A DNA stretch of 64,000 nt from Streptomyces sp. H27-H5 (GTDB lineage: Bacteria; Actinomycetota; Actinomycetes; Streptomycetales; Streptomycetaceae), in NCBI RefSeq assembly GCF_026627505.1, contig NZ_JAPNLK010000010.1, forward strand, positions 1 through 64,000, read 5' to 3'. The notes beneath the pieces were generated by a model. That model was not told where the DNA came from. It did no database searches and worked only from the letters and a program-made list of their open reading frames with translations. Positions 61,309-64,000 of this stretch are shown one piece after another. The translations under genes and the position numbers were made by a program. Position 1 is the first letter of the stretch. Each line of letters begins with the position of its first letter.

Positions 61309-62514
61309 TCACGCGGAGGCGAGCCACAGGTCGGGGCCGAAGACCTCGTAGTGGATGTCCGCCGCCGGCACGCCCTTGCCCAGCAGTTGTTCGCGGACCG
61401 CCCGCATGAAAGGCAGCGGTCCGCACAGGTAGGCGTGGGTGCCCGGGGCCACCGGGACGTCGGAGAGGTCGAGCCGGCCGACCCCGTCGTCGGCCGCGGC
61501 GTCCTCGTGGCCGGTCTCGTACCAGAATCGGGCCGAGGCGTCCGCGAGCTTGTGCGTCAGGGCCCGGTGGTCGCCCCGCAGGGCGTGGTCGGCGGGGGAG
61601 CGGTCGGCGTGCAGGACGGTCACCGGGGCGTCGTGCCCGGTCTCGGCGAGGTGCTCCAGCATCGACAGCATCGGCGTACAGCCGATCCCGGCCGAGGCCA
61701 GCAGTACGGGCGAGGTCGGGTCCTGGAGCACCAGGTCGCCGTACGGGACCGAGACGCTCAGTGTGTCGCCGACGCGGACCGCGGCGTGCAGGTGGTGGGA
61801 GACCTCCCCGTCCGGGCCCGCCGCGGCCGGCCCGTGGACCCGCTTGACGGTGATCGCGCGGACCGGGGAGCCGGGCGACGAGGCGAGGCTGTACTGGCGG
61901 ATCTGGCGCGCGCCGTCCGGGAGTTCGACCTGGACGGAGACGTACTGGCCCGGCTTGAAGCCGGGCGCGGGCGCCCCGTCGGCCGGGACCAGGTGGAAGG
62001 TGGTGCAGTCGACGGTCTCCTCGACGCGGCGGACGACCGTCCACGGGCGCCAGGCGTCGCCCGCGACGACCCGCTGCTCGGCGTACAGCCGTTCCTCGAT
62101 GGCGATGAGGGCGCCCGCCATCAGCCAGTAGACCTCGTCCCAGGCCTTGGCGACCTCGGGCGTGACGGCCTCCCCGAGGACCTCCGCGATGGACTCGAAC
62201 AGGTGCCGGTGGACGATCGCGTACTGGTCGCGGGTGATGCCGAGCGAGGCGTGCTTGTGGGCGATGCGGCCGAGCATCACGTCGGGCCGGGTGTCGGAGT
62301 GCCGGACGAGGTGGCCGGCGAACGCGGCGATGGAGCCGGCCAGGGCCTGCTGTTGCAGTCCGGCCTTCTGGTTGCCGCGGTTGAACAGGTCGCGGAGCAG
62401 GGCCGGGTGGGCGGCGAACAACTTCGCGTAGAAGAGTTCCGCGATGTCGCCGACGGCCGCTCCCACGGCGGGCAGGGTGGCGCGGACGGTCGCGGTCGAC
62501 TTCTCGGACAGCAT
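61309..62514 (-). CDS. hmp: Flavohemoprotein nitric oxide dioxygenase Hmp
   Basis: A 401-residue NO-detoxifying enzyme: globin domain (1 to about 140, Tyr29 B10 and proximal-His region RIAHKHASLGI), FAD domain (about 150-265, RQYSLAS) and NAD domain (GIGCTPMLSMLEHL, YLCGPLPFM). ATG 62514 has AGAGGAG upstream. An NsrR-like site lies 26 bases before the start. Confidence 0.95.
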   Translation of the reverse strand: MLSEKSTATVRATLPAVGAAVGDIAELFYAKLFAAHPALLRDLFNRGNQKAGLQQQALAGSIAAFAGHLVRHSDTRPDVMLGRIAHKHASLGITRDQYAIVHRHLFESIAEVLGEAVTPEVAKAWDEVYWLMAGALIAIEERLYAEQRVVAGDAWRPWTVVRRVEETVDCTTFHLVPADGAPAPGFKPGQYVSVQVELPDGARQIRQYSLASSPGSPVRAITVKRVHGPAAAGPDGEVSHHLHAAVRVGDTLSVSVPYGDLVLQDPTSPVLLASAGIGCTPMLSMLEHLAETGHDAPVTVLHADRSPADHALRGDHRALTHKLADASARFWYETGHEDAAADDGVGRLDLSDVPVAPGTHAYLCGPLPFMRAVREQLLGKGVPAADIHYEVFGPDLWLASA

Positions 62515-62655: not shown

Positions 62656-63117
62656 TCAGTCGGCGGGGCCCCCGCCCCGACCGGGCGGTCCGCCCGAAAT
62701 GCCCAGCAGCAGCGGTCCGGTGGGGGCCGCGACCAGGTCGTTCACCGTGAGCGGGTCCAGTGCGGCGAAGAAGGCCTCCTGGGCCCGACGCAGCGCGCCC
62801 CGCAGGAGGCAGGCGCTCCGCAGCGGGCACGGGACGGCGCCCTCGCAGTCCACCACGTCGCCCACGCCCTCCAGCTCGCGCACCACCGCGCCCACCGAGG
62901 CGGCGCGGCCGGCGCCGGTCAGGGCGAGCCCCCCTCCCCGGCCGCGCCGCGCCTCGACCAGGCCGAGGTGTTGCAGCCTGGCCACCACCTTCGCGGTGTG
63001 GGTGTACGGGACCTCCATGGTCGCCGCGACGTCGCGCGTGGTGGGGAGGTCCGTGTCCTCGACGGCCAGACGCATCAGGACGCGGAGCGCCAGATCGGTG
63101 AATCGGGTCAGCCGCAT
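62656..63117 (-). CDS. nsrR: Rrf2-family NO-sensing repressor NsrR
   Basis: A 153-residue Rrf2 regulator with winged helix (TTRDVAATMEVPYTHTAKVVARLQHLGL) and three cluster cysteines in CEGAVPCPLRSAC, the NsrR pattern. It represses hmp until NO damages the [4Fe-4S] cluster. ATG 63117. Upstream of and parallel to hmp, with its own operator. Confidence 0.92.
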   Translation of the reverse strand: MRLTRFTDLALRVLMRLAVEDTDLPTTRDVAATMEVPYTHTAKVVARLQHLGLVEARRGRGGGLALTGAGRAASVGAVVRELEGVGDVVDCEGAVPCPLRSACLLRGALRRAQEAFFAALDPLTVNDLVAAPTGPLLLGISGGPPGRGGGPAD

Positions 63118-63132
63118 GACTCCACCGTAGAA

Positions 63133-63155
63133 AACTTGAATTTCTGATGCAAGTT
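63133..63155. promoter_or_regulatory. NsrR operator at the nsrR promoter
   Basis: AACTTG (63133-63138) and CAAGTT (63150-63155) bound a 23-bp 11-1-11 inverted repeat, 16 bases before the nsrR start. It fits the known NsrR site architecture and implies autoregulation. Confidence 0.75.
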
Positions 63156-63340
63156 AGGCGGCGGGAGGGCCGTGGATGGCTGAAACCAGGGGGGTCAGAG
63201 GGGCTGGAGGGGAGAAAGGGACTCATCAGAGTGCCCACACCCCATACGGAGTAGTCCCACCCTTTTGTGTAATGGTCTCACCACGCTGTGCACTGGAAGG
63301 CTGATCCCGCAGATCCATGGAGTGATCGAAAGGGAAACAC

Positions 63341-64000
63341 ATGTCGGTCCAGGCAGGTTCCGAATCCGAAGTCCAGGCACCGCAGCGCAGTCTCGGGACC
63401 TCGGCCGCGCGGAACTTGGCAACCACGACCAAGTCCGCGCCGCAGATGCAGGAGATCACCTCCCGGTGGTTGCTCAAGATGCTCCCGTGGGTGTCCGTGC
63501 AGGGCGGTACGTACCGGGTCAACCGGCGGCTCAGCTACTCAGTCGGTGACGGCCGGGTGGAGTTCATCAAGACCGGCACCCAGGTCCAGGTGATCCCCGC
63601 CGAACTCGGCGAGCTCCCGCTGCTGCGCGAGTACGAGGACATCGACGTCCTGACCGAACTCGCCGCCCGGTGCCACCAGATCGACTTCGAGGCCGGCCAG
63701 GAGCTCACCTCCTTCGGCAGCCCCGCCGACAGGGTGTTCCTGCTCGCCCACGGCCGCGTCGACCAGATCGGCACCGGCCCCTACGGCGACGACGCCGTCC
63801 TGCAGACCGTCGCCGACGGCGCCTACTTCGGCGAGGACGCCCTCGTCGACGAGGAGGCCATCTGGGAGTACACCGCCCGCGCCGCCACCTCCGGCACCGC
63901 GCTCGTCCTCTCCCGCCAGGACTTCCAGCTCCTCGCCGACCGGGTCGACTCGCTGCGGGCGCATGTGGACGCGGTCCGGGCCCTGCCCGCCCAGCGGACC
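63341..64000 (+). CDS. eshA: Family 2B encapsulin shell protein with cNMP-binding domain (EshA-like), 5' part
   Basis: The first 220 residues of a gene cut by the window end. The N-terminal arm and start of the HK97-like shell fold ([21 protein letters not shown], then [23 protein letters not shown]) lead into a cyclic-nucleotide-binding-like insertion (about 105-205, with [18 protein letters not shown] and [12 protein letters not shown]). This is the family 2B encapsulin layout, formerly annotated Crp/Fnr-like or EshA. ATG 63341 has AAAGGG upstream. The cargo gene, if present, lies beyond the window. Confidence 0.85.

Follow-up and report, generated by a model that had tools for sequence, protein, structure and literature searches.

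The locus at the end of this stretch of DNA raises the question of what a protein shell encloses when its gene lies beside genes of NO defence. The window, that is, the whole stretch analysed here, comprised bases 1-64000 of contig NZ_JAPNLK010000010.1 of Streptomyces sp. H27-H5, which has a total length of 132,010 bases. An ORF on the forward strand (63341-64000) runs off the end of the window; the same frame stops at contig base 64747 and gives a product of 468 aa. The shell gene and its features are listed below.

63341..64000 (+), on to contig 64747: family 2B encapsulin shell gene; codons 1-220 of 468 lie in the window (from the ORF and profile matches)
63389..63451 (+): conserved N-arm of the shell, codons 17-37, 21 residues (from the alignment of gene-called shells)
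63683..63937 (+): CNB-like domain, shell residues 115-199 (Pfam match; an HK97 E-loop insertion by family definition)

The first-pass annotation had read these bases as the start of a family 2B shell gene with an inserted CNB-like domain, and the profile matches agreed with it. Residues 1-220 alone scored 266.7 bits against NF041163 (encap_f2b) over model positions 1-202/450. A fragment is not expected to reach the cut-off of 400, which applies to the whole protein, and Pfam cNMP_binding was already matched within this fragment, at residues 115-199. The complete 468-aa protein scored 767.3 bits against the same family 2B shell model and covered 450/450 positions. Its Pfam matches were cNMP_binding (residues 115-199, 52.6 bits) and SrpI-like (residues 216-466, 458.4 bits), so the CNB-like domain follows the N-arm and precedes the SrpI-like part. 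An HK97-type domain of the family 2 kind was thus identified by sequence, from NF041163 and SrpI-like. The best solved relative was 9bhu, titled Streptomyces griseus Family 2B encapsulin shell (674.7 bits, residues 1-465). No helix-turn-helix family was detected in the Pfam and NCBIfam scans of the complete protein, and the counter-case of a mere Crp/Fnr regulator lacking the HK97 shell domain did not materialise. The AlphaFold model of the shell (mean pLDDT 55.1, 233/468 residues below 50) was too poor to serve as evidence.

Loci round 2B shells were taken from the genus and the class; they were hand-picked from capped, score-sorted lists and are not a random sample. Five of the 101 loci (L038, L049, L068, L070, and L081) carried no gene-called shell and were excluded from the shell counts. 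The N-arm stretch was anchored in 111/115 gene-called shells, and its S, L, AAR, K, and PQMQ were invariant in 111/111. In the window's genome, the only match to NF041163 above the cut-off was the window's own shell, the one 2B shell found there. Judged by these profiles, the protein is a full-length family 2B encapsulin shell; the kind of system to which it belongs, with a prenyl transferase as partner, was described in 2021. By analogy with relatives whose shells have been solved, it would form closed icosahedral particles.

The first-pass annotation had also proposed reading past the end of the window, which recovered the rest of the shell gene and, 45 bases 3′ of it, a candidate cargo enzyme. 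The genes downstream of the shell encode this prenyl diphosphate synthase and a GNAT protein.

contig 64793-65842 (+), outside the window: candidate cargo gene, polyprenyl transferase, 349 aa (NF041169 match)

The synthase scored 477.9 bits against NF041169, the "family 2 encapsulin nanocompartment cargo protein polyprenyl transferase" (cut-off 450), and 357.2 bits, under the cut-off of 475, against the geranylgeranyl synthase model IdsB. The genome holds six more matches to the general prenyl synthase family, and the nearest paralogue, with 411.0 bits, missed the NF041169 cut-off of 450. The first aspartate-rich motif is DDVID and the second region is DDLIGIWGD, which would presumably give a C20 product; this chain length is a guess from the motifs. 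A structure prediction of the synthase without an alignment was poor (mean pLDDT 45.2) and was unused as evidence. The locus had been said to have no obvious cargo. That statement falls, as the shell gene is followed by a polyprenyl transferase gene of a recognised cargo type, which is kept at 43/44 syntenic loci. The adjacent gene encodes the expected partner enzyme, and therefore the earlier puzzle over the cargo can probably be answered with something described before: what the shell encloses is likely a prenyl chain synthase.

The constancy of the pair was examined in two sets of loci. The named Streptomyces set consisted of the best 80 of at least 590 loci. The named and unnamed sets overlap (for example L048/L249 and L199/L219), so their counts are not additive. 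With tblastn, the synthase was found at 43/44 loci syntenic with the window. Several syntenic loci at first seemed to have lost the synthase; this was rejected as an artefact of gene calling, since tblastn recovered the gene in all 44 except L048. Of the 80 named loci (the top 80 among at least 590), 73 had the synthase immediately 3′ of the shell. Among the other seven, none was found at L237, L249, and L282, fewer than 200 bases of DNA were left at L238 and L268, and a synthase match was present but outside the distance rule at L248 and L260.

A 2B shell of some type was present in 196/199 Streptomyces genomes examined, and a synthase above the NF041169 cut-off in 152/199. The three genomes of the genus without a 2B shell all had no synthase above this cut-off. 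The pairing is not strict: L249, L237, and L282 have an intact shell of the same lineage, yet no synthase above the NF041169 cut-off was found anywhere in these genomes; comparison genomes in the same search had one in 3/3 cases. By gene content, the shell and the synthase form a conserved pair across the genus.

The shell locus is probably the SCO5249 locus of S. coelicolor. This assignment follows the first-pass annotation and the synteny, as a SigB/F/G-type sigma factor lies near the shell locus in the window. SigH is SCO5243 (PMC9739823). The gene had been introduced as SCO5249/EshA and linked to ppGpp, which merges two paralogues. SCO5249 is eshB, and its paralogue SCO7699 is eshA (PMC3878966). 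The ppGpp accumulation is tied to SCO7699/EshA (PMC9739823), and eshA is located beside the 2-methylisoborneol (2-MIB) genes (PMC6428758, PMC5839063). In a tree of 115 shells, built by a quick method and labelled by a neighbour-gene rule, the 43 syntenic shells were set apart as a group by a branch with support 100. This branch adjoins a group of mostly 2-MIB-linked shells. The window's operon was not of the EshA type, which has a 2-MIB synthase and a methyltransferase; a prenyl synthase and a GNAT gene follow the shell instead. Since eshA belongs with ppGpp and the 2-MIB operon and the syntenic shells stand apart, the effects on ppGpp and growth are to be assigned to that paralogue, eshA. The published gene names, the 2-MIB placement of eshA, and the separate branch thus led us to reject an eshA/ppGpp link for the window's shell. 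Keeping eshB apart from eshA prevents the ppGpp findings from being credited to the wrong shell. As to eshB itself, its promoter is reported to be up-regulated during development (PMC3878966). SCO5249 is among the genes differing between mycelial stages (PMC3610822) and is listed as a possible AtrA target (PMC13170358).

On this evidence, the synthase is probably encapsulated in a family 2B shell of the eshB lineage. Family 2B PT operons and their terpenoid role have already been published (PMC8346489). The shell family is widespread, and the literature searched, which covered few subscription papers, contained no experimental work on the prenyl-synthase type.

The N-terminus of the synthase fits the description of such cargo less neatly. 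Encapsulin PT cargo has been described with a disordered N-terminal domain of 50-100 residues (PMC8346489). The window's synthase has at most 15 residues ahead of its core and thus does not carry such a domain. The N-terminus was measurable at 175 loci, with some genomes counted twice. Shells at least 83% identical to the window's were found at 31 loci, its own included; two of these gave no start codon, and the upper bound was at most 17 residues in 28 of the 29 measurable. The exception was L227, with 58 residues before the synthase core. At the 144 other loci, the upper bound ranged from 11 to 276 residues (33 at 20 or fewer, 95 under 50). As nearly all close relatives have at most 17 residues, the described loading domain is absent in the window's clade. 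The synthases of L110, L112, and L201 have seemingly very long, repetitive N-terminal extensions, with uncertain start codons. Many longer forms carry MAEFMTET or MGEFMTET in the N-terminus. We do not claim a conserved N-terminal tag from this, because in the DNA a start at MTET may use some of these bases as its ribosome-binding site, and the start codons were guessed.

For the window's clade, the N-termini would leave three choices: a very short tag, loading mediated by the folded enzyme, or an enzyme that stays outside. We put forward only tentatively, and with some doubt, that the eshB-lineage shell takes up the synthase without a cargo-loading domain, relying instead on a tag shortened to a dozen residues or so, or on contacts that the folded enzyme makes. 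If true, such uptake would differ from the loading through N-terminal domains that has been described for cargo of family 2. The natural series of synthase N-termini (upper bounds 11-276 residues) suits tests of cargo loading.

The strongest alternative places the working synthase outside, at the shell or close by; the shell would then hold something else or act alone, and the pairing of the two genes would reflect a pathway. The near absence of an N-terminal extension (at most 17 residues in 28/29 measurable close loci) speaks for it. So do the three assemblies with a shell and no synthase (L249, L237, and L282), where the element upstream of the shell, listed below, is retained in at least L249 and has a near form in L237 and L282. 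We nevertheless regard this alternative as unlikely, given that adjacency is retained at 43/44 and 73/80 loci (the 80 being the best of at least 590) and that the synthase belongs to the curated cargo family NF041169.

Another candidate content is a terpene cyclase encoded in trans, such as geosmin synthase. The published terpene-cyclase motif is GPTGLGTSAAR (PMC8346489). The shell N-arm SLGT[AS]AARNL, seen in the shells of L003 and L014-L113, has LGT[AS]AAR in common with it. The cyclases examined for LGT[AS]AAR include L059:6669-8921, L074:2287-3585, the unlinked L114-L143, and L167. This motif was picked after the data were seen; at 7/7 positions, it occurred in 0/952 other genes of at least 200 aa, so the shared letters do stand out from the background. 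A cyclase was called unlinked when no shell lay within about 1.5 kb on either side (30 loci), and the genome's own copy was added. Geosmin-type cyclases had 7/7 positions in 6/14 shell-linked and 7/31 unlinked cases (p = 0.29), and 6 or 7 positions in 12/14 and 18/31, respectively. The full motif was present in 3/18 2-MIB-synthase-like proteins. In a profile scan, 10 cyclases were among the top 20, against at most 8 with 200 column-shuffled profiles; the AUC of 0.80 did not exceed what shuffled profiles reached (mean 0.66, maximum 0.93).

The idea that the N-arm was copied into cyclase tags in connection with shell linkage was rejected, because the control (6/14 linked vs 7/31 unlinked) went against it. 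It is possible that cyclase tags occupy the N-arm groove of the shell, which is conceivable because N-arms were unresolved in some 2B shells (PMC12407261). The letters shared between the N-arm and the cyclase motif, and the full motif in geosmin-type cyclases both away from shells (7/31) and linked to them (6/14), would fit loading in trans. The genome's own geosmin synthase, encoded on a different contig from its only shell, has only a decayed form (GLGTTALD, 4/7), and we hold it very improbable that the window's shell loads such an enzyme.

The NO-defence genes had been offered as a hint to the cargo. These genes and the DNA between them and the shell are listed below.

61309..62514 (-): flavohemoprotein-like gene, PRK13289 match of 350 bits (cut-off 432); accessory, outside the shell unit
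62656..63117 (-): Rrf2-family regulator gene, NsrR-like, 83.9 bits to the NsrR model PRK11014 (cut-off 182); accessory, outside the shell unit
63133..63155 (no strand): inverted repeat AACTTGAAT-N5-ATGCAAGTT, before the NsrR-like gene and apart from the shell's conserved element
63232..63275 (+): conserved element with TGCCC at 63232-63236, TTTGTGTAATGG at 63264-63275 and conserved bases between, from 79 aligned loci

Both genes lie on the strand opposite to the shell. The flavohemoprotein and NsrR-like genes were each present at 11/44 syntenic loci, and at 34/80 and 33/80 of the named loci (best 80 of at least 590), respectively. On the neighbour counts of 11/44 and 34/80, we rejected a link between NO defence and the shell, and the hint lapsed with it. 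The upstream alignment comprised 79 loci, namely 78 of the 80 named ones and the window's own. Nine of the 12 bases of the TTTGTGTAATGG block were conserved in at least 77/79 loci, and the remaining three in 61, 72, and 65. With at most two mismatches, TTTGTGTAATGG was found within 400 bases upstream of 38/43 syntenic shells vs 0/71 other shells. With at most one mismatch, it occurred once in the genome, and the reversed control pattern occurred twice. The element is independent of the NO genes: these are absent from most of the named loci, and it persists without them.

The repeat AACTTGAAT-N5-ATGCAAGTT was the only inverted repeat detected in the intergenic stretch between the NsrR-like gene and the shell, and it is possibly the site of the NsrR-like regulator. 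A scan of 63100-63400 for sigma-70 promoters and terminators found none. Rfam RF02735 (Sernc350) matched 63373-63879 on the reverse strand, opposite the shell gene, with 152.3 bits. Sernc350 is an antisense RNA described from Saccharopolyspora, and this match may simply mirror the conservation of the coding sequence. A shell content related to NO or stress is hardly credible: divergent flavohemoprotein and NsrR-like genes do stand just upstream of the shell gene in the window's genome, but they recur at only 11/44, 34/80, and 33/80 loci, the shell's element persists where they are absent, and the regulator-type repeat lies about 77 bases from that element.

The CNB-like domain bears on how a filled particle could work. 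In the Trp175 column, W was present in 108/115 shells and R in 0/115; we take this column to be the position of CRP's phosphate-binding Arg. Trp for Arg in 108/115 shells agrees with a lost binding of cyclic nucleotides, and this is not new in kind. The 2B insertion domain is reported to bind no cyclic nucleotides and to diverge in some binding-site residues (PMC12407261). The particle size and pore position of 2B shells have been reported there as well.

Under the preferred reading, in which the synthase is enclosed, the operon would be a family 2B encapsulin of the lineage called eshB in S. coelicolor. From the family, sixty shell subunits would assemble into a T=1 particle that carries the CNB-like domains on its outer face, above the two-fold pores. 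The synthase would sit in the interior and produce prenyl diphosphates there. Ligands of the CNB-like domain other than cyclic nucleotides may tune the traffic through the pores, and the NO-defence genes adjoining the shell would be passers-by.

Among known systems, the family 2A shell SrpI (6x8m) shares the C-terminal HK97 part (294.8 bits), whereas 2A shells lack the CNB-like insertion and are known with a cysteine desulfurase as cargo (PMC8346489). The S. lydicus shells 9bje and 9bix are of the same fold family (596.1 and 603.9 bits), but that system has two components and two shell genes (PMC12407261) and the window's genome has one. The S. griseus shell 9bhu is co-linear over residues 1-465 with an identical domain order; it is a different protein from the window's shell, and we infer that it belongs with the 2-MIB-linked branch, separate from the syntenic group. 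The PT operons of Andreas and Giessen 2021 (PMC8346489) differ in the 50-100-residue disordered N-terminus of their transferases, which the window's enzyme lacks, but they have the same arrangement in an actinobacterium: a 2B shell with a CNB-like insertion, followed by a polyprenyl transferase.
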